Assembly (NCBI RefSeq): GCF_052324685.1 | Contig: NC_135220.1 | Coordinates: 6,145,843 to 6,209,842 of the forward strand | DNA length: 64,000 nucleotides | Origin: Brachyhypopomus gauderio | Lineage: Eukaryota > Chordata > Actinopteri > Gymnotiformes > Hypopomidae | Reading direction: 5' to 3' | Shown: piece by piece, positions 6,271 through 55,596 of the stretch | Position numbering within the stretch: position 1 is the first letter of the stretch | How the letters are laid out: each line of letters begins with the position of its first letter | Made by a program: the position numbers and the translations under genes | The notes under the pieces: model-generated | The model's input: the letters and a program-made list of their open reading frames with translations, nothing else | The model's database searches: none | Told to the model about the DNA's origin: nothing

Positions 6271-9200
6271 ATGAGTTTTTTCCCCAGGAGAACTGACCAG
6301 CCTAGGCCTAGGCAGGAACAGAACCACTTCATATACACACCAGGTTTTACCACTCATGGTGAGAAAAATACATTTTCATATATACTGTAGATAATTTTAT
6401 ACTTCTATGTAAGACAGTATATTAATTCTTATGAGTATGGATTTCCATAGGCTTATTCATAATAATTAAAAGTTAAATATGTATACACATTTATATAATA
6501 GGTTTCTAAGGTTCAGAAAAATAACCTGTATATTTATTCTACAGATGACTGTCAAGCTCTTTATTTCATGTGTACAGGATAATATAATTAATGGAGCATG
6601 GGTTATTTCTTTGATTTCTTTGACTCAGCACAATTTTCATAAATCCCACCATGTTAACATTGTCCATGTGGCCATGGAAAAAGCAAATAAAAATAAACAT
6701 TTTTAAAAAGAAACAGATTTCTAACATGACCTCACAAATTCTTAAGCATTCTCCCCACATTCTAATGACATCACATGGCACCATAGCCCTTGTTATAATC
6801 ACTTGTTCATTGGGAAACACTTACAAGGCATTTGAGCCACACTGGGAGGCGTGCTGGGTTTCACTTTACCTGCTGTGGGATTTTCAGGTGTGCCCTACAA
6901 CCCCCAAGCGACAGTGATCCACACGGATCCCTGTGGACCAGCACCCTTCCCTCACGGAAGTACGGCGGGACCCTCAGATGTCGGCTATGTTAACATGCCT
7001 GTAGAAGGACCACTCCTCACTGGTACTGTGTAACACTGAAGATTACATGCATATTCAACAAACCAAATAACCATGCATGATGAAGTATTTATTACATTTG
7101 TTTGTAAGGTCTGGCAGAGGTGCAGAACCATCAGCTTTCTGCACATGACCTGACCAGTAAAACATCAGTTTTATCAGAAAATATGACATCACATATTCTT
7201 CAACATTGTAATGAATTCACATGGCACTGTAGCCCTTCTTATAAACCTGATGATCTTAACAGTACATGCTCATGCTTCCTCTGTGCCCTGGGTTGGTGTT
7301 TTGCATTTAGGCCCTGACATGGAGAGGCAGAGACACCTTGCTCAGCCCCATGTTCAAGGCAAGGTTCTGAGGCAGATGGATCCAGTCTACCTCCAGCCTG
7401 CTGGTGGCTTCTTCATCGATAACTGTCTTCTTTCATATAGACATTGATAAGATATTTTTACTAGGCACGCGGACTGTTTTTACAAACATTTGTGAATGGG
7501 TCACTCTCAGGAGCTCAGTGAATTCCAGCGTGGAACTGTGACAGTATGCCACCTGTGCAATAAATCCAGTCATGAAATTTCCTCGCTCCTAAAATTCGAC
7601 AGTCAGCTGTATTATAAGGAAATAGAAGTGTTTGCGATTAACAGCAACTCAGCCACTTGCTTGAATCATATTTCAGTGGCACTTTCAGATAAAGAAACAT
7701 ATGCAACGTAGTACTAAGGCACTGAGAAATGTTATGGTGAGGTCATTTCTGCTAATGGCCTTATTCGCCCATGCAGGTGAAGTTGGCTCCAGCAGGTGTC
7801 CCCCACTGCCTGTGCTCACTTCACGCACGACAGTCACCTCGTCAGGACTGATGAGGCCTTCTCCACCCACCTTCACAAGGTTGCCTCCACTCCCCAAACC
7901 TGCTGGCCGAGAGCCTCTCCGTGCCTTCAGGCCTGCCAAAGGTGAGCTCACTCTTTTGCTCTCCTGGAAATGGCATCCAAACCATTTGTTGCAGTAACAA
8001 AAAAAGTAAAAAAAAAATATTAAAAAAGTAAAAACTGCTTTGAAAACCCTACAGGGGAGACCGGGTATGGTTGTAACATGGGGAGAGTTGTAACACCATC
8101 AGTTCACTCATCTGCTAGGCGGTTGTGTTTAGTATAAGGTGATAATGCTTCGAATCATTGTTATACCAGCATAGTATAATACTGATAATACATGTATATG
8201 GATTACAGATGTCATTTATCACTATTTTAGTACACCCCCAAACAATCTAAACAAAACATTGTCGTGCTGCTTTGCTGGCTTCTGATACCTCATCTGGACT
8301 GCTGCTAAAGCGTATATCTATTAATCTTTGTAATCTATATAACATGGCTTCTTTAAGTATTGGGTATCACCTGGCCAGCGTCAAGCAGCAGCAGTCTGTG
8401 TGATATAAGGAGTTTGTGCTTTGTACCTACTTCTGTTGGCAAGGGCAATGTGAGCTTACAAGCAAGACTAGACTTGAAAGTTTTATTGCAGTCAGTTGAT
8501 TGTGCCAGCACCCCACTCCCCAGGCCTGCGCTGTTCCGATCCAGAGCTTTCCAGAACTCTCCCATAGCCACTTTTGCTCCTCACTGCCATCTGCAGATTT
8601 GATTATGAATAAAAGTTTTCTTAAATGTTATTCAAATTGCTCCTATTCATTAGCACATTTTGTTTATCCACTTAATGCTACTCTTGATATACATTTGAGC
8701 CATGCCAAAATATCGATTATTATAATCTACTATTGTTATTTAAAATGCAGTATGATCTGCAGGTCTTAATTTCATATGCTGGTCTGAAGATTGAACGTGT
8801 CCTCTACAGTTCTGCCTGTGTTTCATGTCCAGGTTCAGTGGAGCCTCCCCAGCTCCACTCTCCAGGGTGGAAGAGAGAGAGAGTGGGGAGACTTCACCGG
8901 AGCGGCAGACATCTTCAACCCTTGCTTCCAGACATATTCGAAGCAGCTAACCCCAGTGATGCTGGCAGAGGTGACTTATTGATGTTGGCTTTACTTTATA
9001 TGTCATTGAAATACCTGTACAAAATGTAGAATTTATAATGTTGCGTAATTTGTTTTGTGTTAAAATATTGCTAAATACGATATTTGGGAACAAGGAGATC
9101 AGTTAGTCAGAAACTTCACTCAGGTTTCAAGTGAACGGAGCTAAACTCATGATCATGGATGCCCTTTCCCATGCAGGTTTGCCCAAATCCAGCCGCTTGC

Positions 9201-12200
9201 TGTCTGGGAACCCCCCTGGGTCTTTCCTACTGCCCTCCTACCCTCTGGCCACTCTTCCGGGAGTGCAGCTCACTCCCACTCTGCATCGTAGACGACACAA
9301 GCGAGACACGAGCCCTCTGCGCAGAGACCCGGGTCCGTGGAGGGACAGTACTGGTGAGCGCATGGCTACGTTGCTAAGAACGTGCTAGGCACACACAGTG
9401 AGGCATGGCCGGTTATTTGGGTGCCCGGTTAAGTTAAGTTGGTCTTGCACTAAGCTTGTCTTGCACTTGTTCCCACGTCAGTGGTAAAGTGATGAGCAGA
9501 CCTAATTTTGTGGTGTCATACATACTACATGAATTTTATTTTAACCAAAAAATGTGCATATACTTGGATCATTTATAGTCACCACTTGTCAAATGTACAA
9601 AATACTCATACTGATGCTCTTCATCTGACATGATTTCACTCAGTAATGGAACAGTGTCTAGCAGAGGCGACATATGCTAGCCATTAGCAGAGCTAGGCGG
9701 TACTGTAGTTTGGCGCTTCAGTATCTACCAGTATCAGAATTAAAATAATTTTGAATTGTGCCGAAATAATTAAATTGAATCAAATTGTATTTAAATGTAA
9801 GACTTCATGATGCAATAAACTAAAAGAATCACAACTAAGCTAAACTAAAACTGGGTCATACATTTACTGAAGCTCTGATAAATGTCTTCCTGCTTCTGGG
9901 CTCACGGATGCCCTGCTTTCAGTTCTTCAGTACTAATTCATTGTGCTGCCATTACATGAATTGTAGCAAGATGCATATGAGATGTTGCCGTTCTCGGTCC
10001 ATCTTGCTTGAATCATATTTCAGTGGCACTTTCAGATAAAGAAACATATGCAACGTAGTACTAAGGCACTGAGAAATGTTATGGTGAGGTAATTTCTGCT
10101 AATGGCCTTATTCGCCCATGCAGGTGAAGTTGGCTCCAGCAGGTGTCCCCCACTGCCTGTGCTCGCTTCACGCACGACAGTCACCTCGTCAGGACTGATG
10201 AGGCCTTCTCCGCCCACATTCACAAGGTTGCCTCCACTCCCCAAACCTTCTGGCCGAGAGCCTCTCCGTGCCTTCAGGCCTGCCAAAGGTGAGCTCACTC
10301 TTTTGCTCTCCTGGAAATTGCATCCAAAATCATTTGCTGCACCAACAACAACAACAAAAAAGTAAAAAAAGTATTAAAAGAGTAAAAACTGCTTTGAAAG
10401 CCCTATACTACAAACAAAAAGCCCCTGCTGATCCTCTTGTACATTGCTATGCCTGCACCCATGGACATGTTTTTCTGCACCATGAAGAAACCACTATGAA
10501 ACCAGAAGTTATATTTGGGATTTTTGATGGAGTACGTGTTAATATGTATTGTGCTTTTCAGGATCTCAAGTGCAAAGCACCAGGGCAGTCCCTGCTGACG
10601 ACATGTGTGAAGGAGTAGTTGGCAGAGGTTGGAATTGCTTTGCTGTTAACACTGCATTACACAACAATGTTTTATATCTAGTTCTCCATGTTGAATAATG
10701 TTTTGCAGTCAGTTTTCAAGCTGATTTGAACCAAAGTTGAGCTGGTAGCCCTAAAAGTCCTAGTCAGTTTGTTTGGGTTCTGGTATTCCTCTCTAGATGA
10801 ACTCAAACCAGGAACTCCCAGGAAGGATCCCCATGAGCATCAGATTTTACAGCCCTTCTACAAACCAGACCTCGCTCTCGCTCAGAGCTTCAGACTGCTT
10901 AGCTCTGATGACTGGTAAGTCACACCTGCAAAATTCTGAAGCATATGGCTAGGGCAGGTTAAACAGCAAGTCATTTATGGTGTTCTGCATATATGGTATG
11001 TATGCATGTATTTAGTGAAGTTTTTTCCTCTTTGTCCCTTTTCTTGTAGCATTTTTTACTTTCAGTAGCCAATGGTTACAGTGTGTGTCTATGTCCAATA
11101 TCTTCATACAGGGAGAAGAAAATTGAAGGATTGATGTCAATCCGTAGATTGGCTCAGTATCACGCTGATGTGCTTGGCAGCAGGCTTCATGATGTCTGCA
11201 TTGTTCTTATTCAAGAGGTAAGCCACTATATTTGCTGACTGTGTATCTGTCTTCTGAATTCTAAAATTGGCAGCCATCAGCATGTACACATTACAGGTGA
11301 TGTTGCTGACAAACTCAAGTCAGAGTTAGCATAGTACTTTGAAATTCCTTTTTTATAAAAACATTTCTCATTTAATTGAAATTCAGATGGCATATCTAAC
11401 TGTAATTAGTGATTAATGTATTTAGGCCTACATAACACATTGCAGTGGTGGATTATACTTATTAAGATGGCGGTGGCAGTGTTGGATGTGGCTGAAACGA
11501 GCTGGAACGTCGTCTTTCCTGCAGGTGCTGCACCTGCGCTCTGCAGTGTCCCGCATGGCGGTGGTGTCCTTGAGGGAGTTGTACTCCAGCCTGCAGAAAG
11601 GGATGGACCAGGAAGTGGAGGCTACAGCTAAGGTCCTCCTCCACAAAGCAGCGGAGTCCAATGGCTTCATCAGGCAGGACGTGGACACAGCTCTGGACAG
11701 CATGGTGCAGAACTGCACCCCCATTCGGAGCATGAACGCCCTTCTTGCTGGAGGACTCTGGTCAGTTAGCATGCAGTGAGCTTTAAACTGTGGCTTTCAG
11801 ATAGCAACAACAGTAACAAGAAGCTAACACAACACTGATTATGGCTGCTGTTTTTACTTCTCCATTGTTCTTTCAAAATATTGCCACGACCTATATCAAT
11901 ATTTTTAGTTATTTATCCTCTTAAATATTTTTTTTTATTGAGTTCCATCTCCGCTCTGCTGATCCAAACTGCCCTTCACACCACTTAAAGAATAGGCTAG
12001 TTAGCTAGCTCACAGAGGACATACAAACATTTTCTGTTTAAAAAATACATATATACACTAACTGTTGCAAACTAAGCCATTGAATAGAATATGATCATTT
12101 GATTGTGCACGTAGATCATACATAAGGGTATTAAGTTTCTTTATAGAAGCAAAAAGTTGTACTGTATACATTGATTGGATGGATTAATAGTTATTACCTT

Positions 12201-15200
12201 CTTTTTTTGAATGCCCTAATTTTTTTCCTTCTGTTTTCCTCAAAAGTCATCTGAATGCTGCAGTAAGAAAGTGTACTGCTCGGCACTTGGCTACTTTGGT
12301 AGAGAAGATTGGTGCAGAGCGAATTATTCCTGCAGTCTCCAAGTTGGCACAGGACTCTTCCCAAGAAACCAGGTTAGTATTGTGATCAGAACGAGAATTC
12401 TACAAAGCTTATTCAATTTCCCAGATAGTAATAGATGCTGTGAGTCATGGATCCCTCACTCTCGGTTCTCTCCTGTTTTGGGGTCTGTTCCTCGTCTCAG
12501 GCGCTTGGGCCGGCGTATGCTGCTGTTCCTGTCCTCCCACCACGACTTTGATAAGATGGTGGAAAAGTACATCCCTGCCAAAGACCTGGCAACCATCAGG
12601 GACACTGTCCTCACTCTGAAATCCAAGGTGGCGATTCATGTTTGGATACATGATGAGGATTTTTTATCCCTTTCAGCAACTATGCCCCATGTTTACTCAC
12701 TAAACAAAGCTTATTCACAAAACTTCTAGGTGAAACAGACTGCAATAAAAAAACATCTAAACTGTCATGGTAGACATATATTGTAAACAAATAATAAAGT
12801 ACAGGACAGTGCGTGACACCACACATTGTATTTACAGTAGGACATGCACAGTGGTTGAGCATGGTTCAAAATGAACCGGTTTGAAACCTTTGGGATAGAA
12901 TCAAAGTATGAAGCAACATGTGGACTTCAATATCATCACTCCATGTTTTGTGGTGATTCGTACGTGTGTATTCCCAGAAGAGGACAAAGGTGTCTAGGAT
13001 TCCAAGATATAAGATGCGTCAGCCTCGTCTGGAGCAGCAAGAAGCTCCAGCCGCACAGACGGATCGGCAGAACACGCAGCGAATGAAGCGCAGCCTTAGG
13101 CACACGGTGAAGGACGTGAGCCCAGACGACGCGGCACCTCTGAAAGGTAACGGCTGACCTCGGCAAACGCTCCCCTCCTGTTTCCTGAGAACTTTACCTT
13201 ACCGCTTACCTATGAACCTCCTTCTCATCAGACCTGCAGCTGAACAGTAATGTTCCAGCCCAGACTAAGACCGATGTCCTCATGGATGATTTGCCCACGA
13301 GCCCCAGCAATGCACGCACCCCCAGAAGTCCCAGCCCCCCCACGGCTGTCCCTACTAAACACTTACTGCCACGACGCAGACGAGCTCCCAGTCTGATCAG
13401 AGCACGCCCGTCCCTTTCAAACAGTTCTGGTGAGTGTTGCCTGCTCTTCAGCTTCTTCATGTGTGATCACTGCGCTTGCACGTAAATTGCTTTGCTGTTA
13501 ACACTGCATTACACAACAATGTTTTAAATCTAGTTCTCCATGTTGAATAATGTTTTGCAGTTACAAGGATGTAACTTTTTTTGTTTCATGTAGTGAGCTT
13601 CACTTCACGTTACACTGCGGGACGTCTTCTGGGCACAGGAGGATTCGGCTCAGTGTATGCAGGAGTCCGCAAGGCTGATGGAAAACAGGTGAGCATCAGC
13701 ACACAATACAAGAATGATTGTGGGACCTAATTTCTATTTTAGATTGTGATTAGAACTTTGAGCTATGAGTTTTCCCTAGAGATCATTTGTTATTCACATG
13801 GCAATCAAGTGGTCAAGTCTAATGTACCTTGACCTTTTTCCACTTTTTGAACACAAAGATCCTGATTATACAATGTGATAAGCTTGGCAATCTGTGGATG
13901 AGTATTTATCAGACTCCAGATTTATGAGTTACCCGAGAAGCTGTGGCTACCATCTGAAAGCCCTTAGATATGTTAAATATACTGTCTGTTTTGTGTAAAC
14001 AACTTCACTTCCTGTGTTTTTTATGTGACCAGATCGCCATTAAATTTGTGCCAAAGTATCACGCAGAAAGGTTCATCACTGTTGTAAGTCCAATACCTTT
14101 ACTTATGTAATATTGCAACAATGTTTGGAACTTTTTAGATGGGTAAAACTGTAAAGGGACTATAAACGCAAAGCTGTTAATTTTCCATTCAGTGACTCCT
14201 CACAACACGAATGGAAAACAGTTCACATTTTAGATTCAGGTTTCATCTAATGATTGGTACCAATCCAGATCCCTTTCATGTTAACCTGCTAACCATAATT
14301 CCACTATAAATCTTCAAACCCATACTAACCAAGTCTTCCTTAATTTTAGCCCGGCAATACTCGCCGTCTCCCCTTAGAGGTGGCTTTAATGGAGATGGTG
14401 TGCAAGCCACCTCGTTGTGAGCATATTGTGGAGCTCCTAGAATGGTTTGAGTGCCACAAGTGCTTCATCTTGATTCTGGAGCGACCCGTCCCCTGCATAG
14501 ACCTGTTTGACTTCTTGAACTTGCACCAACGCCAACTGCCTGAGCCACTGGCACGACGGATCATGCGTCAGGTGGTTCAGGCTGTCCTTCACTGCCATGA
14601 CCGTGGAGTTCTGCATAGAGACATCAAGGGAAAGAACCTTCTGGTGAACCTGGACACCCTTGACGTCAAGTTGATCGACTTTGGCTGTGGCGATCTGCTT
14701 AAGACCGGACCCTACAGGCACTTTAGAGGTTATTCACCATAGGAATGAAATGTGCACCTCAAGTTAAAAAATGGGATCAAATTAGAGACTATTATAAACA
14801 TTTTATTTTGTTATTGATGATTCTCTCTCGTTGTCTCAGGCACCATGGTATACAGCCCACCTGAATGGCAGGTTGACAGGACGTATGAGGGCCGTCAAGC
14901 CACCATCTGGAGTCTGGGTGTGCTCCTCTACAGTATTATCTGTGGACATCTGCCCTTTGAGAAGGTGGAGGACATTGTTGAGGCACACCTGTGCTTCAGT
15001 GGAAACCCATCCAGAGGTGAAAAGGCAGAAGCATCTTCAAGATAACTAGAAAGTCTAAATTGCAAAATGATCATTTATGTAATTATTTAATCTGGTAATG
15101 TAATACACAACCACAGATTGATAAAATGGACTAATGAAGAATGGAGAATTGGCAATACAACATTTTGTAACCGTCTTAAAATGATAAAAAGTTTTGTTCA

Positions 15201-15446
15201 GTCTTTTTTGTTAGTGATGGAGGTTTCTGTACAGTTCTGTCATTTATAAACTTTGAATAAGCCATTAGAACAGTCAGATCAGAAGTTTCAGATGGTAATT
15301 GATTTTCTTTCTCAACTAATCCCGTTGCTACACACACAGACTGCCGCCATCTGATAACATGGTGTCTTCAAAAGGACCCTGCAAAACGTCCTGTGCTCGA
15401 GGATGTTCTTGCACATGAGTGGTTTTTAGAAGGACTTCAGAACTAA
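6271..15446 (+). CDS. TOGARAM–Pim chimera, copy 1: TOG-domain protein fused to Pim-like Ser/Thr kinase
   Basis: Exons: 6271–6358, 6888–7022, 7311–7403, 7777–7941, 8833–8970, 9177–9353, 10124–10288, 10562–10627, 10797–10914, 11112–11217, 11525–11760, 12247–12372, 12501–12627, 12978–13146, 13232–13429, 13594–13688, 14033–14083, 14350–14728, 14840–15016, 15340–15446. All introns are GT–AG and phases agree, giving 971 residues without a stop. Residues 1–381 are Pro/Arg-rich. Residues ~380–580 form a TOG domain of the TOGARAM (crescerin) family, known to bind tubulin in cilia; the helix with DDWEKKIEGLMSIRRLAQYH opens it. Residues 581–702 are a linker. Residues 703–971 are a Pim-type kinase: glycine loop GTGGFGSVY, Lys738, αC Glu761, Pim-like proline hinge ERPVP, HRD at 840–842, DFG at 861–863, PPE at 884–886. 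TOGARAM1 versus TOGARAM2 ancestry is unclear. Start chosen as the first ATG after a good acceptor. Alternative: a separate Pim gene from ATG 13014. Confidence 0.72.
6359..6887. other. Intron 1 (coding) of copy 1
   Basis: 529 bp, AT-rich, no additional exon supported. Its 3' half (about 6725–6800) resembles 7181–7245 in the next intron: both carry ATGACATCACA- and TCACATGGCAC-type motifs followed by TAGCCCTT, suggesting an old local duplication. Confidence 0.5.
7656..8050. repeat. Intragenic duplication, copy A, containing exon 4
   Basis: About 395 bp starting CTTGCTTGAATCATATTTCA and ending at GAAAACCCT. It includes the whole 165-nt exon 4 (7777–7941) with both splice sites, and it is repeated 2.35 kb downstream. 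Confidence 0.85.
7942..8832. other. Intron 4 of copy 1
   Basis: 891 bp. It holds A-rich runs, a GAGACCGGGTATGGTTGTAA motif at about 8057 that resembles the end of a fish repeat, and a C-rich stretch at 8510–8600 with exon-like composition but no usable donor. No exon is called. Confidence 0.45.
9354..10123. other. Intron 6 of copy 1
   Basis: 770 bp, AT-rich. The last ~120 bp belong to intragenic duplication copy B. No gene or transposon is recognised in the remainder. Confidence 0.45.
10003..10404. repeat. Intragenic duplication, copy B, containing exon 7
   Basis: Near-identical to 7656–8050. Exon 7 (10124–10288) differs from exon 4 at only four bases that I can see, changing Thr to Ala and Ala to Ser. 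Both exons are phase 1–1, so the duplication lengthens the protein by 55 residues in frame. Confidence 0.85.
10633..10709. repeat. 77-bp patch, TOGARAM intron copy
   Basis: Begins AATTGCTTTGCTGTTAACAC and ends TTTTGCAGT, in the intron after exon 8. It is matched with one mismatch at 13485–13561 inside the Pim part of the gene. Confidence 0.85.
11112..12627 (+). other. TOG-domain exons of copy 1 (exons 10–13)
   Basis: The four exons encode about 198 residues of alternating amphipathic helices typical of a HEAT-type TOG domain. Family-diagnostic stretches are AVSRMAVVSLRELYSSLQKG, SNGFIRQDVDTALDSMVQNC, ARHLATLVEKIGAERIIPAV and GRRMLLFLSSHHDFDKMVEK. I recognise these as TOGARAM (FAM179/crescerin) TOG sequence, matching the penultimate TOG domain of that family. 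The last exon ends ...LTLKSK in phase 0 with an unusual donor, GTGGCG. The equivalents in other copies are 24513–26028, 37902–39417 and 51335–52721. Confidence 0.75.
12637..12945. repeat. Left direct repeat flanking the Pim cassette, unit 1
   Basis: About 309 bp starting CATGTTTGGATACATGATGA, nearly repeated at 15476–15809. I count about 17 differences over ~305 aligned bases plus one ~25-bp indel. It lies in the intron that joins the TOG and linker exons. Confidence 0.85.
12793..12798 (+). promoter_or_regulatory. Intronic AATAAA downstream of the TOG exons
   Basis: A consensus AATAAA about 165 bp after exon 13, within the left direct repeat. If the weak donor GTGGCG at 12628 is not used, the frame continues for 34 codons (VAIHVWIHDEDF...) to a TAG at 12727–12729, before this signal. 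That would give a TOG-only protein. Confidence 0.35.
13485..13561. repeat. 77-bp patch, Pim-linker intron copy
   Basis: Same 77 bp as 10633–10709, with TTTTAAATC instead of TTTTATATC. It lies in the intron between linker exon 15 and the first kinase exon. Confidence 0.85.
13594..15446 (+). other. Pim-like kinase-domain exons of copy 1 (exons 16–20)
   Basis: Five exons encode a full-length kinase domain of about 268 residues ending ...WFLEGLQN and TAA at 15444–15446. Pim hallmarks are the proline-containing hinge ERPVPCIDLFDF, LHRDIKGKN, LIDFGCGDLLK, VYSPPEW and the ATIWSLGVLLY segment with Trp in the F-helix region. Pim kinases are constitutively active cytoplasmic/nuclear kinases that phosphorylate basic-site substrates. 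Teleosts carry large families of Pim-like genes. Because introns are present, the segment arrived as DNA, not as a retrocopy. Confidence 0.85.
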
Positions 15447-15475: not shown

Positions 15476-15809
15476 CATGTTTGCATACATGATGAGGATT
15501 TTTTATCCCATTCAGCCACTATGCCCCATGTTTACTCACTAAACAAAGCTTATTCACAAAACCTTTAGGTGAAACAGACTGCAAAAAAAAACCATCTAAA
15601 CTGTGATGGTAGACATATATTGTAAAAAAATATTAAAGTACAGGGCAGTGCGTGGCACCATACATTGTATTTACAGTAGGGCATGCACAGTGTAGTCCCA
15701 GACCCAGTAGTTAAAGGACAGAGCATGGTTCAAAATGAACCGGCTTGAAACCTTTGGGATATAACCAAAGTATGAAGCAACATGTGGACTTCAATATCAT
15801 CACTCCATG
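15476..15809. repeat. Right direct repeat flanking the Pim cassette, unit 1
   Basis: About 334 bp starting CATGTTTGCATACATGATGA. It is longer than the left copy because of an extra TAGTCCCAGACCCAGTAGTT region near 15692. It sits just upstream of the next TOGARAM exon acceptor (15827), so this copy probably occupies the original intron position. Confidence 0.85.
15632..15637 (+). promoter_or_regulatory. Candidate polyadenylation signal ATTAAA for the chimera
   Basis: ATTAAA about 190 bp after the kinase stop is the nearest standard-like signal. The equivalent base in the left direct repeat makes AATAAA instead (12793–12798). Use is inferred. Confidence 0.35.
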
Positions 15810-15827: not shown

Positions 15828-17748
15828 GATCTGGGTGAGATGCCTCAGGATACACAGCTCGAGGCAGGCGCTCCATCCCAGCTGTGGAGTCATGCGTACC
15901 TCCTCCTCAGTTTGCCAGCAGGTGAATATTTAAAATCAAACAACAACAAAAATCAAAACAACAACAAAAAAGTGCATCCTGATTGGAACTGCTTTGATGT
16001 TTGCAATTTTGATGGTTTTGATGTTGGTTTAATTTGATTGCAGCCTTGTTCATTTTGTGTTTCAACACTATAACCCAATCCTTGTGTTTTCTCTCTTGTG
16101 TGTGTTCAGCAAAGACAGCAGCAGAGCACACATCCTTAGCATTGCAGACAAGACGGAGTACGTCAAGCAGCTCAAGGCCCTGCTGGGTTCAAAAGACTTC
16201 AGGGAGCGCATCAAGTGCATTGATCAGCTGGTGGTCGACTGCGAAGACAACCCATATATGGTCGTGGGCAACATGTTTCCGGTAACTCATTTGAACTGAA
16301 TTGATTTTTAATGTTTTCAGCAGCTTTCAGAAGTGATCTGTATAGGGGGTCATACGTTGGAGAACATTAAATGCTGGCACATTTTAAATGCTGGCACATC
16401 ACACTGCTCAGATGTGCCAGCACTGCTCAGAGACAACCTGGCCCAAGTGGTCTAGATCTTAGTCCCAGCTATAGTGGACAATCACCTCAACTCCAAGAAT
16501 AACGCCATCTACATGGCAACAATAGGTGCCATTCAAGCTCTCATCAATAACCTTGGTGGGTTCATTTCTCTCTTCACAAAACATCTTGAAGAACACATGC
16601 CACTGGGCTTTAGAAAAACAACAACAACAATGATTGTGTTCTGTTTTACCTTTGGGGAAAAGGTTCACACAAATCGGTAAAAGAATGTTCCTGCTCTTTG
16701 ACTAGATGTTTGTGGTGCAGATCAAATGGAAATTTCCTTTCATATTAAGGCACAGTCCAATATAAAGAGAAAAAAAAAGACTGACAGGAGATCTTGCGTT
16801 ATCTGACAGCAGATTGTTAAATAATGGAGTTTACAGTGGATGTGCTTAGGCTCTTTTGTTCTGCCTAATATGCACTCAAATAATTATGCATATGTGTTCC
16901 AAATGACCATTTGCAAACAGAGCTTTGTTCTCCTATCAGATACTGTTCATATATATTTAGTTAAAGTGTAACATTTTATGTGAATAATTAGTTGTTTTGA
17001 TAAAGCAGGACACGTTTCTAAAAAGAATTACCATACTGTAAATATTGCTGAACTTGACCAACACTGTCCTTGATCTATCTTTTTTCAGATAACACTACTT
17101 CTTCAACTGTTTTGCACAAAGGCTCGATTTCTCAGTGGAAAAGCTAAAGTGGATCTTGTTGATAAAGTTGCAGGTAAGTATACAATATACAGTGTCTAAT
17201 CTTTTGTGGTTGTGTATACAGAAATATTCTACAAATTCAAATACATTTATCAAAAAACAATTATTTCAGAAAGTCATTCCACTGATATGCTAAGAGATGC
17301 CAGAGATAAAAAAAAGATAAAAGATTTACCAGAAATACTATAATTCCTATATTTATTAATAATATTTATAATATTGATAATAATCATTCCAGAGAGTTAC
17401 CATAGTTACCAAATACTGTCACTTTAATTGAATTAAATCTTTCTAGGTTAAGAAAATGCTTCTGCAATAACCCAGTACTTTCCAGGGTTGATTTATTGAT
17501 CTTGTTCTTTTTATAGAGCTGGTTAGGGAACTCTTCCCCTGCAAGCCACAACTGGTTGAGCAGAAGGTGCTTCCTCTGCTCTGGTACCTCCTGGGGACCT
17601 CCAGCAACAGTGGTACAGTCCACGGGAGGGGTGGAAGCGTAAGGGGGGCCACTGTCCACCTATGCCAAGCCGCAAGAGCCTAAACGAGTTTGTGAAGAAC
17701 CTCTCGATCAACTGAGAGCTGCCAGCCAGACCTCCAGACCAAAATAAA
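15828..17748 (+). pseudogene. Decayed TOGARAM 3' exons (C-terminal TOG domain), unit 1
   Basis: Five exon remnants follow the kinase stop. 15828–15921 begins GEMPQDT in the ancestral phase 0 but is frameshifted before GRRSIPAVE. 16110–16281 is intact and encodes a TOG start (IADKTEYVKQLKALLGSKDF). About 16420–16555 lacks its 5' half and has an in-frame TAG at 16453–16455, upstream of ILVPAIVDNHLNSKN. 17089–17173 is intact (FCTKARFLSGKAKVDLVDKV). 17517–17715 reads to an in-frame TAA at 17681–17683, because an internal deletion put the terminal SLNEFVKNLSIN out of frame. An AATAAA at 17743–17748 follows. Since the fusion ends at 15446, these exons are free of coding constraint. Confidence 0.8.
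16389..16422. repeat. Perfect 12-bp inverted repeat at the truncated TOG exon
   Basis: TGCTGGCACATC (16389–16400), a 10-nt loop, then GATGTGCCAGCA (16411–16422). It abuts the point where the third TOGARAM remnant exon loses homology, so it may mark the deletion event. Present in the equivalent place in every complete unit. Confidence 0.8.
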
Positions 17749-18684: not shown

Positions 18685-19193
18685 ACTATACAACAAAAAT
18701 AACTTCTATGTTTAATTTACAGTAGAACTATAATCCACATACTTCTTTGAATGGTGTATTTTTAGGCACACTGAAACAGCATATATAATTTACTATAGCT
18801 ATAAATTATTATACATCTAAGCATTCCTGCTTTTAACCTAGTAATGGTGATTATGTGTATAATTTTATGCAATGTATGATTTTTTAAAAATAGTTTGTCA
18901 CTTGTACTACATCCCTATCCCACTAGTGGGCAGTATTTGACAGTGAGTTGTGTTGAGACCAGAGTGAGACCGTATGTACTCTCAGAGGGCCTAAAAATAT
19001 TCTTAAAACATAAATATATATAAAATAATTTATCCAAATTTATTTTATCTACTTACAGTTTGGCAATCGACATCTAAACAATGACAAAAATATAAGGAAA
19101 TACATTATTCAACCGTGTCTATTCAATCTGTGTTGGAAGGTGAGGGGTTAAGTGGAAGCCTGTGAGCCTGTGTCTCCCCCTATCAGGACTGTG

Positions 19194-19363
19194 ATGCCCG
19201 CTGTTCGTTTACAGACAGCAAAATTGACCAATCATGTCTTCCCTCTTAGTGGGCGGGCTTAACTGTATGATAATTTCCGCCCGCTGTTGAAACGCAGCTG
19301 TCGTTAGCGTACCACCGCTAGCTAGTTTCAATTCATTCCTTTGATGTATATATATAATATATA
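19194..19363 (+). promoter_or_regulatory. Putative promoter of the unit 2 gene
   Basis: Copy of the CCAAT (19228–19232) plus GGGCGGG (19251–19257) module. Downstream it reads TTTCCGCCCGCTGTTGAAAC, where unit 1 differs. Because each unit carries this module, each gene copy could be expressed independently. Confidence 0.5.
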
Positions 19364-19673
19364 CGGTCTCTGGTATGAACCCTTTGGGTACAAGCCAGGC
19401 GGCATCAGGTTATTGTAGCAGTCTGGCTGATTTGGTGTTTTGGTTAGAAAAACTGGAAATTGTGATATCACGTGCTACTCAACTTTGGAATGTTTGGTTT
19501 AGAATGTTTGGTTGGGAAGGTGGAATGTTTGGATTCAGTTTTGATGCTGAAAAGCTCAGAACAAGTCGAAAGACATTTTGCTCTGTGAATTACAATACAT
19601 ACAAATCTAACAAATCTTTCTATTTCTTCTATATCTTTCTGTCTTTCTATTCTTTCTATTTTTCAGGTGGAGA

Positions 19674-22600
19674 ATGAGTTTTTTCCCCAGGAGAACCGAC
19701 CAGCCTAGGCCTAGGCAGGAACAGAACCACTTCATATACACACCAGGTTTTACCACTCATGGTGAGAAAAATACATTTTCATATATACTGTACATAATTT
19801 TATACTTCTATGTAAGACAGTATATTAATTCTTATGAGTATGGATTTCCATAGGCTTATTCATAATAATTAAAAGTTAAATATGTATACACATTTATATA
19901 GTAGGTTTCTAAGGTTCAGAAAAATAACCTGTATATTTATTCTACAGATGACTGTCAAGCTCTTTATTTCATGTGTACAGGATAATATAATTAATGGAGC
20001 ATGGGTTATTTCTTTGATTTCTTTGACTCAGCACAATTTTCACAAATCCCACCATGTTAACATTGTCCATGTGGCCATGGAAAAAGCAAATAAAAATAAA
20101 CATTTTTAAAAAGAAACAGATTTCTAACATGACCTCACAAATTCTTAAGCATTCTCCCCACATTCTAATGACATCACATGGCACCATAGCCCTTGTTATA
20201 ATCACTTGTTCATTGGGAAACACTTACAAGGCATTTGAGCCTCACTGGGAGGCGTGCTGGGTTTCACTTTACCTGCTGTGGGATTTTCAGGTGTGCCCTA
20301 CAACCCCCAAGCGACAGTGATCCACACGGATCCCTGTGGACCAGCACCCTTCCCTCACGGAAGTACGGCGGGACCCTCAGATGTCGGCTATGTTAACATG
20401 CCTGTAGAAGGACCACTCCTCACTGGTACTGTGTAACACTGAAGATTACATGCGTATTCAACAAACCAAATAACCATGCATGATGAAGTATTTATTACAT
20501 TTGTTTGTAAGGTCTGGCAGAGGTGCAGAACCATCAGCTTTCTGCACATGACCTGACCAGTAAAACATCAGTTTTATCAGAAAATATGACATCACATATT
20601 CTTCAACATTGTAATGAATTCACATGGCACTGTAGCCCTTCTTATAAACCTGATGATCTTAACAGTACATGCTCATGCTTCCTCTGTGCCCTGCGTTGGT
20701 GTTTTGCATTTAGGCCCTGACATGGAGAGGCAGAGACACCTTGCTCAGCCCCATGTTCAAGGCAAGGTTCTGAGGCAGATGGATCCAGTCTACCTCCAGC
20801 CTGCTGGTGGGTTCTTCATCGATAACTGTCTTCTTTCATATAGACATTGATAAGATATTTTTACTAGGCACGCGGACTGTTTTTACAAACATTTGTGAAT
20901 GGGTCACTCTCAGGAGCTCAGTGAATTCCAGCGTGGAACTGTGACAGTATGCCACCTGTGCAGTAAATCCAGTCGTGAAATTTCCTCGCTCCTAAAATTC
21001 GACAGTCAGCTGTATTATAAGGAAATGGAAGTGTTTGCGATTAACAGCAACTCAGCCACTTGCTTGAATCATATTTCAGTGGCACTTTCAGATAAAGAAA
21101 CATATGCAACGTAGTACTAAGGCACTGAGAAATGTTATGGTGAGGTCATTTCTGCTAATGGCCTTATTCGCCCATGCAGGTGAAGTTGGCTCCAGCAGGT
21201 GTCCCCCACTGCCTGTGCTCACTTCACGCACGACAGTCACCTCGTCAGGACTGATGAGGCCTTCTCCACCCACCTTCACAAGGTTGCCTCCACTCCCCAA
21301 ACCTGCTGGCCGAGAGCCTCTCCGTGCCTTCAGGCCTGCCAAAGGTGAGCTCACTCTTTTGCTCTCCTGGAAATGGCATCCAAACCATTTGTTGCAGCAA
21401 CAAAAAAAGTAAAAAAAAAATATTTAAAAAGTAAAAACTGCTTTGAAAACCCTATAGGGGAGACCGGGTATAGTTGTAACATGGGGAGAGTTGTAACACC
21501 ATCAGTTCACTCATCTGCTAGGCGGTTGTGTTTAGTATAAGGTGATAATGCTTCGAATCATTGTTATACCAGCATAGTATAATACTGATAATACATGTAT
21601 ATGGATTACAGATGTCATTTATCACTATTTTAGTACACCCCCAAACAATCTAAACAAAACATTGTCGTGCTGCTTTGCTGGCTTCTGATACCTCATCTGG
21701 ACTGCTGCTAAAGCGTATATCTATTAATCTTTGTAATCTATATAACATGGCTTCTTTAAGTATTGGGTATCACCTGGCCAGCGTCAAGCAGCAGCAGTCT
21801 GTGTGATATAAGGAGTTTGTGCTTTGTACCTACTTCTGTTGGCAAGGGCAATGTGAGCTTACAAGCAAGACTAGACTTGAAAGTTTTATTGCAGTCAGTT
21901 GATTGTGCCAGCACCCCACTCCCCAGGCCTGCGCTGTTCCGATCCAGAGCTTTCCAGAACTCTCCCATAGCCACTTTTGCTCCTCACTGCCATCTGCAGA
22001 TTTGATTATGAATAAAAGTTTTCTTAAATGTTATTCAAATTGCTCCTATTCATTAGCACATTTCATTTATCCACTTAATGCTACTCTTGATATACATTTG
22101 AGCCATGCCAAAATATCGATTATTATAATCTACTATTGTTATTTAAAATGCAGTATGATCTGCAGGTCTTAATTTCATATGCTGGTCTGAAGATTGAACG
22201 TGTCCTCTACAGTTCTGCCTGTGTTTCATGTCCAGGTTCAGTGGAGCCTCCCCAGCTCCAATCTCCAGGGTGGAAGAGAGAGAGAGTGGGGAGACTTCAC
22301 CGGAGCGGCAGACATCTTCAACCCTTGCTTCCAGACATATTCGAAGCAGCTAACCCCAGTGATGCTGGCAGAGGTGACTTATTGATGTTGGCTTTACTTT
22401 ATGTCATTGAAATACCTGTACAAAATGTAGAATTTATAATGTTGCGTAATTTGTTTTGTGTTAAAATATTGCTAAATACGATATTTGGGAACAAGGAGAT
22501 CAGTTAGTCAGAAACTTCACTCAGGTGTCAAGTGAACGGAGCTAAACTCATGATCATGGATGCCCTTTCCCATGCAGGTTTGCCCAAATCCAGCCGCTTG

Positions 22601-25600
22601 CTGTCTGGGAACCCCCCTGGGTCTTTCCTACTGCCCTCCTACCCTCTGGCCACTCTTCCGGGAGTGCAGCTCACTCCCACTCTGCATCGTAGACGACACA
22701 AGCGAGACACGAGCCCTCTGCGCAGAGACCCGGGTCCGTGGAGGGACAGTACTGGTGAGCGCATGGCTACGTTGCTAAGAACGTGCTAGGCACACACAGT
22801 GAGGCATGGCCGGTTATTTGGGTGCCCGGTTAAGTTAAGTTCGTCTTGCACTAAGCTTGTCTTGCACTTGTTCCCACGTCAGTGGTAAAGTGATGAGCAG
22901 ACCTAATTTTGTGGTGTCATACATACTACATGAATTTTATTTTAACCAAAAAATGTGCATATACTTGGATCATTTATAGTCACCACTTGTCAAATGTACA
23001 AAATACTCATACTGATGCTCTTCATCTGACATGATTTCACTCAGTAATGGAACAGTGTCTAGCAGAGGCGACATGTGCTAGCCATTAGCAGAGCTAGGCG
23101 GTACTGTAGTTTGGCGCTTCAGTATCTACCAGTATCAGAATTAAAATAATTTTGAATTGTGCCGAAATAATTAAATTGAATCAAATTGTATTTAAATGTA
23201 AGACTTCATGATGCAATAAACTAAAAGAATCACAACTAAGCTAAACTAAAACTGGGTCATACATTTACTGAAGCTCTGATAAATGTCTTCCTGCTTCTGG
23301 GCTCACGGATGCCCTGCTTTCAGTTCTTCAGTACTAATTCATTGTGCTGCCATTGCATGAATTGTAGCAAGATGCATATGAGATGTTGCCGTTCTCGGTC
23401 CATCTTGCTTGAATCATATTTCAGTGGCACTTTCAGATAAAGAAACATATGCAACGTAGTACTAAGGCACTGAGAAATGTTATGGTGAGGTAATTTCTGC
23501 TAATGGCCTTATTCGCCCATGCAGGTGAAGTTGGCTCCAGCAGGTGTCCCCCACTGCCTGTGCTCGCTTCACGCACGACAGTCACCTCGTCAGGACTGAT
23601 GAGGCCTTCTCCGCCCACATTCACAAGGTTGCCTCCACTCCCCAAACCTTCTGGCCGAGAGCCTCTCCGTGCCTTCAGGCCTGCCAAAGGTGAGCTCACT
23701 CTTTTGCTCTCCTGGAAATTGCATCCAAAATCATTTGCTGCACCAACAACAACAACAAAAAAGTAAAAAAAGTATTAAAAGAGTAAAAACTGCTTTGAAA
23801 GCCCTATACTACAAACAAAAAGCCCCTGCTGATCCTCTTGTACATTGCTATGCCTGCACCCATGGACATGTTTTTCTGCACCATGAAGAAACCACTATGA
23901 AACCAGAAGTTATATTTGGGATTTTTGATGGAGTACGTGTTAATATGTATTGTGCTTTTCAGGATCTCAAGTGCAAAGCACCAGGGCAGTCCCTGCTGAC
24001 GACATGTGTGAAGGAGTAGTTGGCAGAGGTTGGAATTGCTTTGCTGTTAACACTGCATTACACAACAATGTTTTATATCTAGTTCTCCATGTTGAATAAT
24101 GTTTTGAAGTCAGTTTTCAAGCTGATTTGAACCAAAGTTGAGCTGGTAGCCCTAAAAGTCCTAGTCAGTTTGTTTGGGTTCTGGTATTCCTCTCTAGATG
24201 AACTCAAACCAGGAACTCCCAGGAAGGATCCCCATGAGCATCAGATTTTACAGCCCTTCTACAAACCAGACCTCGCTCTCGCTCAGAGCTTCAGACTGCT
24301 TAGCTCTGATGACTGGTAAGTCACACCTGCAAAATTCTGAAGCATTTGGCTAGGGCAGGTTAAACAGCAAGTCATTTATGGTGTTCTGCATATATGGTAT
24401 GTATGCATGTATTTAGTGAAGTTTTTTCCTCTTTGTCCCTTTTCTTGTAGCATTTTTTACTTTCAGTAGCCGATGGTTACAGTGTGTGTCTATGTCCAAT
24501 ATCTTCATACAGGGAGAAGAAAATTGAAGGATTGATGTCAATCCGTAGATTGGCTCGGTATCACGCTGATGTGCTTGGCAGCAGGCTTCATGATGTCTGC
24601 ATTGTTCTTATTCAAGAGGTAAGCCACTATATTTGCTGACTGTGTATCTGTCTTCTGAATTCTAAAATTGGCAGCCATCAGCATGTACACATTACAGGTG
24701 ATGTTGCTGACAAACTCAAGTCAGAGTTAGCATAGTACTGTGAAATTCCTTTTTTATAAAAACATTTCTCATTTAATTGAAATTCAGATGGCATATCTAA
24801 CTGTAATTAGTGATTAATGTATTTAGGCCTACATAACACATTGCAGTGGTGGATTATACTTATTAAGATGGCGGTGGCAGTGTTGGATGTGGCTGAAACG
24901 AGCTGGAACGTCGTCTTTCCTGCAGGTGCTGCACCTGCGCTCTGCAGTGTCCCGCATGGCGGTGGTGTCCTTGAGGGAGTTGTACTCCAGCCTGCAGAAA
25001 GGGATGGACCAGGAAGTGGAGGCTACAGCTAAGGTCCTCCTCCACAAAGCAGCGGAGTCCAATGGCTTCATCAGGCAGGACGTGGACACAGCTCTGGACA
25101 GCATGGTGCAGAACTGCACCCCCATTCGGAGCATGAACGCCCTTCTTGCTGGAGGACTCTGGTCAGTTAGCATGCAGTGAGCTTTAAACTGTGGCTTTCA
25201 GATAGCAACAACAGTAACAAGAAGCTAACACAACACTGATTATGGCTGCTGTTTTTACTTCTCCATTGTTCTTTCAAAATATTGCCACGACCTATATCAA
25301 TATTTTTAGTTATTTATCCTCTTAAATATTTTTTTTTATTGAGTTCCATCTCCGCTCTGCTGATCCAAACTGCCCTTCACACCACTTAAAGAATAGGCTA
25401 GTTAGCTAGCTCACAGAGGACATACAAACATTTTCTGTTTAAAAAATACATATATACACTAACTGTTGCAAACTAAGCCATTGAATAGAATATGATCATT
25501 TGATTGTGCACGTAGATCATACTTAAGGGTATTAAGTTTCTTTATAGAAGCAAAAAGTTGTACTGTATACATTGATTGGATGGATTAATAGTTATTACCT

Positions 25601-28600
25601 TCTTTTTTTGAATGCCCTAATTTTTTTCCTTCTGTTTTCCTCAAAAGTCATCTGAATGCTGCAGTAAGAAAGTGTACTGCTCGGCACTTGGCTACTTTGG
25701 TAGAGAAGATTGGTGCAGAGCGAATTATTCCTGCAGTCTCCAAGTTGGCACAGGACTCTTCCCAAGAAACCAGGTTAGTATTGTGATCAGAACGAGAATT
25801 CTACAAAGCTTATTCAATTTCCCAGATAGTAATAGATGCTGTGAGTCATGGATCCCTCACTCTCGGTTCTCTCCTGTTTTGGGGTCTGTTCCTTGTCTCA
25901 GGCGCTTGGGCCGGCGTATGCTGCTGTTCCTGTCCTCCCACCACGACTTTGATAAGATGGTGGAAAAGTACATCCCTGCCAAAGACCTGGCAACCATCAG
26001 GGACACTGTCCTCACTCTGAAATCCAAGGTGGCGATTCATGTTTGGATACATGATGAGGATTTTTTATCCCTTTCAGCAACTATGCCCCATGTTTACTCA
26101 CTAAACAAAGCTTATTCACAAAACTTCTAGGTGAAACAGACTGCAATAAAAAAACATCTAAACTGTCATGGTAGACATATATTGTAAACAAATAATAAAG
26201 TACAGGGCAGTGCGTGACACCACACATTGTATTTACAGTAGGGCATGCACAGTGGTTGAGCATGGTTCAAAATGAACCGGTTTGAAACCTTTGGGATAGA
26301 ATCAAAGTATGAAGCAACATGTGGACTTCAATATCATCACTCCATGTTTTGTGGTGATTCGTACGTGTGTATTCCCAGAAGAGGACAAAGGTGTCTAGGA
26401 TTCCAAGATATAAGATGCGTCAGCCTCGTCTGGAGCAGCAAGAAGCTCCAGCCGCACAGACGGATCGGCAGAACACGCAGCGAATGAAGCGCAGCCTTAG
26501 GCACACGGTGAGGGACGTGAGCCCAGACGACGCGGCACCTCTGAAAGGTAACGGCTGACCTCGGCAAACGCTCCCCTCCTGTTTCCTGAGAACTTTACCT
26601 TACCGCTTACCTATGAACCTCCTTCTCATCAGACCTGCAGCTGAACAGTAATGTTCCAGCCCAGACTAAGACCGATGTCCTCATGGATGATTTGCCCACG
26701 AGCCCCAGCAATGCACGCACCCCCAGAAGTCCCAGCCCCCCCACGGCTGTCCCTACTAAACACTTACTGCCACGACGCAGACGAGCTCCCAGTCTGATCA
26801 GAGCACGCCCGTCCCTTTCAAACAGTTCTGGTGAGTGTTGCCTGCTCTTCAGCTTCTTCATGTGTGATCACTGCGCTTGCACGTAAATTGCTTTGCTGTT
26901 AACACTGCATTACACAACAATGTTTTAAATCTAGTTCTCCATGTTGAATAATGTTTTGCAGTTACAAGGATGTAACTTTTTTTGTTTCATGTAGTGAGCT
27001 TCACTTCACGTTACACTGCGGGACGTCTTCTGGGCACAGGAGGATTCGGCTCAGTGTATGCAGGAGTCCGCAAGGCTGATGGAAAACAGGTGAGCATCAG
27101 CACACAATACAAGAATGATTGTGGGACCTAATTTCTATTTTAGATTGTGATTAGAACTTTGAGCTATGAGTTTTCCCTAGAGATCATTTGTTATTCACAT
27201 GGCAATCAAGTGGTCAAGTCTAATGTACCTTGACCTTTTTCCACTTTTTGAACACAAAGATCCTGATTATACAATGTGATAAGCTTGGCAATCTGTGGAT
27301 GAGTATTTATCAGACTCCAGATTTATGAGTTACCCGAGAAGCTGTGGCTACCATCTGAAAGCCCTTAGATATGTTAAATATACTGTCTGTTTTGTGTAAA
27401 CAACTTCACTTCCTGTGTTTTTTATGTGACCAGATCGCCATTAAATTTGTGCCAAAGTATCACGCAGAAAGGTTCATCACTGTTGTAAGTCCAATACCTT
27501 TACTTATGTAATATTGCAACAATGTTTGGAACTTTTTAGATGGGTAAAACTGTAAAGGGACTATAAACGCAAAGCTGTTAATTTTCCATTCAGTGACTCC
27601 TCACAACACGAATGGAAAACAGTTCACATTTTAGATTCAGGTTTCATCTAATGATTGGTACCAATCCAGATCCCTTTCATGTTAACCTGCTAACCATAAT
27701 TCCACTATAAATCTTCAAACCCATACTAACCAAGTCTTCCTTAATTTTAGCCCGGCAATACTCGCCGTCTCCCCTTAGAGGTGGCTTTAATGGAGATGGT
27801 GTGCAAGCCACCTCGTTGTGAGCATATTGTGGAGCTCCTAGAATGGTTTGAGTGCCACAAGTGCTTCATCTTGATTCTGGAGCGACCCGTCCCCTGCATA
27901 GACCTGTTTGACTTCTTGAACTTGCACCAACGCCAACTGCCTGAGCCACTGGCACGACGGATCATGCGTCAGGTGGTTCAGGCTGTCCTTCACTGCCATG
28001 ACCGTGGAGTTCTGCATAGAGACATCAAGGGAAAGAACCTTCTGGTGAACCTGGACACCCTTGACGTCAAGTTGATCGACTTTGGCTGTGGCGATCTGCT
28101 TAAGACCGGACCCTACAGGCACTTTAGAGGTTATTCACCATAGGAATGAAATGTGCACCTCAAGTTAAAAAATGGGATCAAATTAGAGACTATTATAAAC
28201 ATTTTATTTTGTTATTGATGATTCTCTCTCGTTGTCTCAGGCACCATGGTATACAGCCCACCTGAATGGCAGGTTGACAGGACGTATGAGGGCCGTCAAG
28301 CCACCATCTGGAGTCTGGGTGTGCTCCTCTACAGTATTATCTGTGGACATCTGCCCTTTGAGAAGGTGGAGGACATTGTTGAGGCACACCTGTGCTTCAG
28401 TGGAAACCCATCCAGAGGTGAAAAGGCAGAAGCATCTTCAAGATAACTAGAAAGTCTAAATTGCAAAATGATCATTTATGTAATTATTTAATCTGGTAAT
28501 GTAATACACAACCACAGATTGATAAAATGGACTAATGAAGAATGGAGAATTGGCAATACAACATTTTGTAACCGTCTTAAAATGATAAAAAGTTTTGTTC

Positions 28601-28847
28601 AGTCTTTTTTGTTAGTGATGGAGGTTTCTGTACAGTTCTGTCATTTATAAACTTTGAATAAGCCATTAGAACAGTCAGATCAGAAGTTTCAGATGGTAAT
28701 TGATTTTCTTTCTCAACTAATCCCGTTGCTACACACACAGACTGCCGCCATCTGATAACATGGTGTCTTCAAAAGGACCCTGCAAAACGTCCTGTGCTCG
28801 AGGATGTTCTTGCACATGAGTGGTTTTTAGAAGGACTTCAGAACTAA
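19674..28847 (+). CDS. TOGARAM–Pim chimera, copy 2
   Basis: Exons: 19674–19761, 20291–20425, 20714–20806, 21180–21344, 22236–22373, 22578–22754, 23525–23689, 23963–24028, 24198–24315, 24513–24618, 24926–25161, 25648–25773, 25902–26028, 26379–26547, 26633–26830, 26995–27089, 27434–27484, 27751–28129, 28241–28417, 28741–28847. The frame is open throughout (971 residues). Relative to copy 1 there are a few substitutions, for example His to Gln in exon 5 (CTCCAATCT), Gln to Arg in the first TOG exon (GCTCGGTAT) and Lys to Arg in the linker (GTGAGGGAC). The kinase exons from 27434 to 28847 show no change I could find, and all catalytic motifs are present. TOG exons span 24513–26028 and kinase exons span 26995–28847. 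Confidence 0.7.
26038..26346. repeat. Left direct repeat flanking the Pim cassette, unit 2
   Basis: Equivalent of 12637–12945. Pairs with 28877–29210. Confidence 0.8.
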
Positions 28848-28876
28848 CTCAGGTTAGACAAGGAGTATAAATGGAA

Positions 28877-29210
28877 CATGTTTGCATACATGATGAGGAT
28901 TTTTTATCCCATTCAGCCACTATGCCCCATGTTTACTCACTAAACAAAGCTTATTCACAAAACCTTTAGGTGAAACAGACTGCAAAAAAAAACCATCTAA
29001 ACTGTGATGGTAGACATATATTGTAAAAAAATATTAAAGTACAGGGCAGTGCGTGGCACCATACATTGTATTTACAGTAGGGCATGCACAGTGTAGTCCC
29101 AGACCCAGTAGTTAAAGGACAGAGCATGGTTCAAAATGAACCGGCTTGAAACCTTTGGGATAGAACCAAAGTATGAAGCAACATGTGGACTTCAATATCA
29201 TCACTCCATG
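28877..29210. repeat. Right direct repeat flanking the Pim cassette, unit 2
   Basis: Equivalent of 15476–15809. It reads GGGATAGAACC where units 1 and 4 have GGGATATAACC. Confidence 0.8.
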
Positions 29211-29228
29211 ATGTTGATGTGGCTTTAG

Positions 29229-42266: not shown

Positions 42267-42295
42267 CTCAGGTTAGACAAGGAGTATAAATGGAA

Positions 42296-42630: not shown

Positions 42631-42648
42631 ATGTTGATGTGGCTTTAG

Positions 42649-55567: not shown

Positions 55568-55596
55568 CTCAGGTTAGACAAGGAGTATAAATGGAA

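Follow-up and report, generated by a model that had tools for sequence, protein, structure and literature searches.

The window, by which we mean the whole 64,000-nucleotide stretch analysed, contains a gene that joins a TOG domain to a Pim-like kinase in one open frame. The initial annotation took this gene for a single chimera, and it is instead one member of a family that recurs across the genome. The best explanation, which we favor with moderate confidence, is that a TOGARAM2-like gene received a Pim-like kinase cassette and gave rise to a spreading family whose product would be a kinase held on tubulin. All features of the window described below lie on its forward (+) strand and are given in its positions.

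Gene model and tandem array

Twenty exons between 6271 and 15446 join with consistent phases into a frame of 971 residues, as the initial annotation had claimed; the frame spans 2916 nt with a single stop codon, GT-AG borders all 19 introns, and the splice sites quoted at 12627 and 12978 both match their earlier description. A search with Pfam located CLASP_N (residues 380-518, E = 1.5e-8) and Pkinase (residues 709-965, E = 3e-53) on the single chain of this copy, bearing out the claim that one frame encodes both a TOG domain and an entire kinase of the Pim type; further copies keep this frame. Exons 1-8 (6271..10627), separated by phase 1 introns, encode a proline-rich N-terminal part, where exon 4 (7777-7941) and exon 7 (10124-10288) arose by duplication, being contained in a repeat of 94.6% identity (7653-8051 and 9999-10405). 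In the exon model, exons 9-13 (10797..12627) encode the TOG domain found as CLASP_N, exons 14-15 (12978..13429) a basic Ser/Pro-rich linker, and exons 16-20 (13594..15446, with the stop codon at 15444-15446) the Pim-like kinase domain.

The window holds this fusion gene as a tandem array, which the initial annotation had missed, with units of ~13.4 kb that start at 5645, 19049, 32436, 45871 and 59176 and are about 99% identical. Open frames with GT-AG junctions are present in all four complete units, with 971 residues in the first and in unit 2 (19049..32435, coding exons 19674-28847), and 981 residues in unit 3 (32436..45870, coding exons 33061-42266) and unit 4 (45871..59175, coding exons 46496-55567). 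Unit 5 (59176..64000) is cut off by the end of the window and, compared with unit 4, has a gap of about 165 bases that removes the end of exon 3.

Location of the fusion seam

The initial annotation had placed the meeting point of TOG gene and kinase at 12627|12978. That junction, however, unites two pieces of the TOG gene, because exons 14-15 also occur in the kinase-less loci L029 and L031 and are thus native to the TOG gene family. As judged from sequence matches, the true fusion seam is the chimeric intron at 13430..13593, with its breakpoint at 13561|13562: locus L029 matches the window up to 13561, and loci L009, L011 and L022 match it starting at 13562-13564, giving a TOG-family intron on the left and a kinase-family intron on the right. 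The 5' breakpoint is identical in the window and in all four other fused loci compared (L013, L015, L018 and L019). The 3' border of the cassette is marked at 15476..15809, where the TOG intron next to exon 13 appears for a second time; this stretch is an 87% repeat of the first copy (12637-12945) and is 94-96% identical to the TOG introns of L029, L018, L015 and L013, with one L015 copy at 84%. Downstream of the kinase stop lie exons left over from the TOG4 part of the original gene (16111..17680); the first (16111-16281) is open and the second has an in-frame TAG (16453-16455), which recurs in all four window units. A transcript that skips the kinase and continues into TOG4 was considered and rejected, as a working TOG4 is unlikely there given this TAG.

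The position of the seam bears on whether two overlapping transcription units could account for the frame, with a TOG transcript that stops before the kinase and a kinase transcript that begins in the linker, for example at a Met near 13014. There is an in-frame Met close to the start of exon 14, and the same genome has kinase genes without TOG. However, the sequence to the left of 13562 matches the TOG family, the kinase's own upstream exons having been left behind by the fusion, and unfused kinase genes carry a linker of their own. Exon 16 starts in phase 1 and has no Met, and the linker duplicates alongside TOG exons and not alongside the kinase. We regard separate transcription as quite unlikely. 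That the assembly itself fused two genes is highly improbable: the array is repetitive and of a class in which assemblies can go wrong, and the near-identical copies on the high-numbered contigs C156, C181, C249, C476, C557, C625 and C751 may be alternative haplotypes, but nothing else was seen in its support, and contigs C2, C8, C10, C13 and C22 share one breakpoint with the window although their copies have their own substitutions.

The fusion family across the genome

The kinase exon has 76 genomic copies with at least 79% identity, none with a stop. Pairing the hit tables, with 150 of 178 linker candidates scored, we found linker exon 14 upstream and sequence of the first TOG4 exon downstream in 33 of the 76 copies, while the other 43 had no listed TOG linker. 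A TOG exon was looked for in ten linker-less copies, within the 10 kb fetched, and none was found. Outside the window, the same model is open in both copies tried, L026 and L027, with 981 residues each. Across exons 9-20, every junction consensus is present in seven of eight modeled copies, in a comparison that entered L016 at exon 13 in the first of its modules and left out L014, L019 and L021. Loci L017 and L018 have the order TOG-linker-TOG-linker-kinase, and Pfam found two CLASP_N stretches in L018 (E = 1.9e-17). In the kinase tree, a single clade (support 0.889) holds the 11 fused rows, and the 10 unfused rows stand apart. Because breakpoints are shared and the fused kinases form one clade, the comparison suggests a single fusion event, followed by spread.

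Of the 33 fused copies, 23 have an uninterrupted first TOG4 exon, and in the other 10 it is broken or partial. Matches to this exon are also broken or partial on contigs C15 and C25, for which the hit list has no kinase exon, and TOG4 decay is therefore not special to fused copies. Locus L030 (C17:4.76M) was considered as the ancestral TOG gene and rejected, because its TOG exons have stops.

Constraint on the reading frame

Segmental copies of amplified, non-functional DNA could look intact merely through youth. The window units are about 99% identical and dN/dS is near 1, and there are broken relatives, including the stops in L030 and deletions in the last linkers of L019 and L021 that cover exons 14-15 and may disrupt their frame across the seam. 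In contrast, among copies that are 4-8% apart in their TOG and kinase exons, no stops were seen where 9.9 were expected (ten aligned copies, P about 5e-5), and 7 of 7 indels within exons came in threes, compared with 15 of 50 in introns. Downstream, the TOG4 remnant did acquire its stops and breaks. We judge non-functional amplification unlikely. The TOG part alone had no stops against 3.1 expected (P = 0.04); the intactness of the kinase is partly selected, because the loci were found via kinase hits.

As a main test of constraint, dN/dS proved uninformative alone and gave way to the counts of stops and indels. Among copies dN/dS ranged from 0.39 to 1.24 in the TOG part, 0.90 to 2.83 in the linker and 0.48 to 1.35 in the kinase, and was low solely in the close pair W1-L026 (0.11 and 0), and coding sequence diverged at about the same speed as introns. 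Taken alone, a dN/dS near 1 would fit weak constraint. Caution is called for by this ratio, by the loss of a TOG tryptophan in four copies and by the TOG4 breaks that also occur away from any listed kinase.

That tryptophan lies in the HEAT-A loop, where in TOG domains it engages beta-tubulin, according to one study (PMC6641166). Its codon in the window copy is divided across the exon 9/10 junction. Considering the last TOG of each copy, it is kept in W1, L015-L018, L026 and L027, and is replaced by Gly in L013, L014 and L021 and by Arg in L019.

Identity of the TOG gene

When compared alone with PDB sequences, the TOG domain had no match at E 0.001 and only marginal, weak ones at E 10 (CLASP1, E = 0.49). 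The kinase-less L029 and L031 carry TOG exons plus further TOG4-like exons; in L031, a single TOG is accompanied by the linker and a TOG4-like part. The TOG4-like exons of kinase-less copies match CKAP5 chain 4qmi (E = 6e-4); Pfam gave VHS alone for the TOG4 part, below its cut-off. The TOG gene is probably TOGARAM2/Crescerin2-like, because the kinase-less copies have this two-TOG arrangement and because of a C-terminus that we take to resemble that of TOGARAM2.

Catalytic and substrate sites of the kinase

The closest solved structures are Pim-1 (E = 3e-77) and Pim-2 (E = 9e-70). Residues K67, E89, D167, N172 and D186 are conserved in all 21 kinase rows, and the hinge ERPxP is visible in the aligned rows. 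Kinase exons of the window family are 43-49% identical to the genome's nearest other kinase exons, which were taken for ordinary Pims. Pim1 is constitutively active according to PMC3729456, from which we drew seven Pim-1 peptide-contact sites. These sites have a mean of 3.29 residue types, compared with 1.69 across the domain, and 75 of 100000 random draws reach 3.29, in a test that was not blind, as the variable sites were known beforehand; contact sites are, moreover, surface sites. Among the acids that read the substrate arginines, D128 is present in 21 of 21 rows, D131 in 12, E171 in 14 and E243 in 14; D170 is present in none (Glu in 14), nor is D234, and the window copy has Lys at the Pim-1 E171 position. 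In the reading we favor, the family would consist of microtubule-directed, probably active kinases with a shifting substrate choice.

Proposed origin and function

In the favored explanation, the ancestor would be a TOGARAM2/Crescerin2-like gene in which the TOG repeat had been duplicated. Its second repeat, from the preceding intron through the tail of exon 13, would have been swapped for the five 3'-most exons of a gene for a Pim-like kinase, the phase 1 introns flanking both sides preserving the frame. The kinase stop would have become the new protein end, and the old TOG4 exons would then have decayed. The fusion was probably one event, and the fused gene would afterwards have spread and multiplied. 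The TOG domain or domains would anchor the protein on tubulin or microtubules, where a catalytically complete kinase of a constitutively active family would phosphorylate nearby proteins. Substrate choice is probably diversifying, because copies differ at substrate-reading residues. As a guess, the site of action may be cilia, sperm or the centrosome. More tentatively than the fusion itself, and as a rather doubtful extension, these dozens of copies may make up a lineage-specific family of kinases tethered to microtubules, some of them double-TOG, with diversifying selection on their substrate-reading residues, as in genetic or host-parasite conflict on microtubules of the sperm, spindle or cilium.

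If expressed, the family would be a natural case of a kinase acquiring a microtubule address through exon shuffling, in a genome where relatives of the two donors can still be seen, together with the seam and the TOG4 exons that were discarded. Its size and variable substrate sites would provide a test bed for kinase target change, and copies with TOG-TOG-kinase and single-TOG orders would allow a comparison of microtubule binding.

Comparison with known systems

We know of no described protein with a TOG plus Pim-like kinase architecture, and none appeared in the titles and abstract starts among the literature matches listed, a scope that mostly excludes subscription papers. Fish genomes show expansions of Pim-like kinases; the 43 copies without a listed TOG linker resemble these, whereas the 33 fused to the TOG gene do not. 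The fusion kinases resemble Pim-1/2/3 in their best PDB matches, in K67, E89, D167 and D186 and in the hinge, but are joined to TOG and have altered substrate-contact acids.

Crescerin2/TOGARAM2 (FAM179A) has two TOG domains similar to TOG3 and TOG4 of Crescerin1, according to PMC12203965. The kinase-less L031 may resemble it in layout; the fused copies differ in having a kinase for the second TOG repeat, a TOG4 remnant and dozens of copies. The TOGARAM2-ALK tumor fusion also joins part of TOGARAM2 to a kinase, as PMC12989054 describes. It is a fusion in a patient's tumor, whereas the present family of kinase genes is inherited. STK36/Fused and ULK4, both linked to cilia, likewise have a kinase and helical repeats on one chain, but their kinase is N-terminal and their repeats are not TOG domains of the present type.

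A tandem array of TOG-kinase genes

The initial annotation proposed a 20-exon gene at 6271-15446, and this model is upheld by our analysis: the exons form a single 971-residue frame with GT-AG borders at all introns. TOG domain and kinase do lie on a single chain, where Pfam assigns residues 380-518 to CLASP_N and residues 709-965 to a protein kinase domain. The solved structures nearest to the kinase part are Pim-1 and Pim-2. The window (G000:C10:6145843-6209842) is a tandem array of ~13.4 kb units, ~99% identical, that begin at 5645, 19049, 32436, 45871 and 59176. All four complete units have an open reading; an in-frame 30-nt indel in exon 15 separates units 3 and 4 from units 1 and 2. Compared with unit 4, unit 5 lacks ~165 bases at 60929, which removes the end of exon 3, and ~178 bases at 63207. 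Exons 4 and 7, a proline-rich phase-1 exon, lie in a 0.4 kb intragenic duplication (7653-8051 and 9999-10405), and a repeated CT-rich stretch with self-matches of 76-83% lies upstream of the array at 4226-4646.

Position and origin of the seam

The breakpoint between the TOG gene and the kinase gene had been placed at 12627|12978, a position that we now revise. L029 and L031, two loci elsewhere in the genome, are TOG genes with no kinase in the stretch read; they carry linker exons 14 and 15, followed by the C-terminal TOG-like exons of the original gene (TOG4 exons). Consequently, the linker is part of the TOG gene, and 12627|12978 joins two pieces of that gene. Alignments locate the true seam within the intron at 13430-13593, where the window's match to TOG-type introns ends at 13561 and its match to kinase-gene introns starts at 13562-13564. 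On the 3′ side, the kinase flank stops near 15475 and is followed by a second copy of the post-exon-13 intron; in the fused locus L018, a longer kinase flank leads into the final nucleotides of exon 13. The kinase cassette thus took the place of a second TOG repeat, between the post-exon-15 intron and the exon 13 tail.

Matches continue across the seam in all four other fused loci compared (L013, L015, L018 and L019), and in the kinase tree a single clade (support 0.889) unites the 11 fused rows and excludes the 10 unfused ones. Because seam and clade are shared, a single fusion event is the simplest account. Five unfused kinase genes (L011, L022, L023, L024 and L028) carry the fused gene's exons 1-3 and a sixth, L020, exon 1 only, so that 5′ ends have been swapped between fused and unfused kinase genes. 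The linker read in L011 and L022 differs from that of the fused gene.

Both boundaries of the exon 9-15 module are in phase 1, as is the start of kinase exon 16; therefore, the frame survived the fusion, and the same boundaries allow copies with a doubled TOG-linker module before the kinase. Such doubling, whole or partial, occurs in L014, L016, L017, L018, L019 and L021. Starting at exon 9, L017 and L018 each give 927 uninterrupted residues with consensus sequences at all junctions, and L018 has two CLASP_N stretches by Pfam. In L019 and L021, the last linker has suffered deletions that reach across exons 14-15.

Size and spread of the family

We searched 796.5 Mb of genome with the main kinase exon, scoring 150 of 274 candidates, so that all counts are lower bounds. 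There are at least 127 matches, at least 76 of them at ≥79% identity, and none of these 76 contains a stop codon; the identity of the next matches drops to 43-49%. Kinase, linker and TOG4a (the first TOG4 exon) were paired by reading match tables, with 150 of 178 linker exon 14 candidates and all 120 TOG4a candidates scored. At least 33 of the 76 copies have linker exon 14 upstream and TOG4a sequence downstream, ~1.8-2.0 kb from the start of the main kinase exon. Eleven of the 33 lie in this array on C10; ten further near-identical copies, some of which may be alternative haplotypes, lie on C1, C23, C156, C181 (two), C249, C476, C557, C625 and C751; and 12 diverged copies lie on C2, C7, C8, C10, C13 and C22. 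The other 43 kinase copies have no linker among the matches listed (150 of 178 candidates scored). Twenty loci were fetched around kinase exons, ten fused and ten unfused, and in the latter, which are among these 43, the 10 kb read contains no TOG exon.

TOG4 exons are still present downstream of the kinase stop. In 23 of the 33 fused copies the TOG4a match is unbroken; among the other ten, seven hold it in two pieces and three retain the later piece only. The second remnant exon carries the same TAG in all four complete window units, at a position where L029 and L031 encode Tyr. Broken or partial TOG4a also occurs at about sixteen places on C15 and C25, with no kinase exon nearby among the matches listed, and TOG4 decay is thus not confined to fused copies.

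With the TOG exon as query, all 150 scored candidates (of 760) match, 27 in fused loci and 123 elsewhere, the latter without a kinase exon among the matches listed. Since 123 of at least 150 matches fall away from listed kinase exons, the TOG family extends beyond the fused loci. Three TOG loci were fetched and read directly: L029, L031 and the broken L030 (C17:4757500-4767499), a relative with stop codons in its TOG exons and, from ~880 to 4560 of the locus, several long stretches that stay open. C9 17.55-19.0 and 22.5-23.2 Mb, the regions sampled by L029, hold dozens of TOG exon matches, many in pairs separated by ~3.28 kb, and none of the kinase exon matches listed for the fused family falls there; these clusters are a second large expansion within this genome.

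Evidence for coding constraint

Across exons 9-20 of ten aligned copies, we count at least 323 changes, from which 9.9 stop codons are expected under an assumed 4:1 transition weight (5.3 in TOG plus linker, 3.1 in TOG alone, 4.6 in the kinase) and none is observed. Gap runs are multiples of three in 7 of 7 cases inside exons versus 15 of 50 in introns; the exon count leaves out two runs spanning exon and intron (L019/L021) and two at cut slice ends, and includes one 108-nt run adjoining the spanning deletions of L019/L021. However, dN/dS is ~1 in most copy pairs, which runs counter to the stop and indel evidence. Eight diverged copies differ from the window by 4.6-6.0% in introns, 3.8-6.7% in TOG exons, 6.7-7.6% in the kinase and 6.6-11.7% in the linker. 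As exon dS also equals or exceeds the intron value for most pairs, a higher exon mutation rate could explain part of this divergence. A kept frame with freely changing residues fits either weak constraint with a recent origin or diversifying selection.

Predicted function

PMC3729456 describes Pim1 as a constitutively active kinase and lists the sites at which it contacts peptide. K67, E89, D167, N172 and D186 (Pim-1 numbering) are kept in all 21 kinase rows. The seven side-chain contact sites from that paper (128, 131, 134, 170, 171, 234 and 243) average 3.29 residue types versus 1.69 over 256 mapped sites, a diversity reached by 75 of 100000 random seven-site draws (63 of 100000 for fused rows alone) in a comparison that was not blind, the variable sites having been seen before the list was drawn. 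As contact sites are exposed, ordinary surface drift may account for part of this variability. With D170 replaced by Gly and E171 by Lys, the window copy probably has an altered preference for arginine-rich targets.

The HEAT-A tryptophan is present in the window copy, L015-L018, L026 and L027 but absent from the final TOG of L013, L014, L019 and L021, so that some copies may not bind tubulin. At the level of DNA, and of frames kept in the fully read copies, there is good support for this family of fused genes; its protein would be a microtubule-directed kinase. Taken whole, we lean toward this explanation, with doubt mostly on expression and mechanism. In Crescerin, TOG3 and TOG4 are reported to be necessary for microtubule lattice association (PMC12203965); the fused protein retains its first TOG domain and lacks TOG4.
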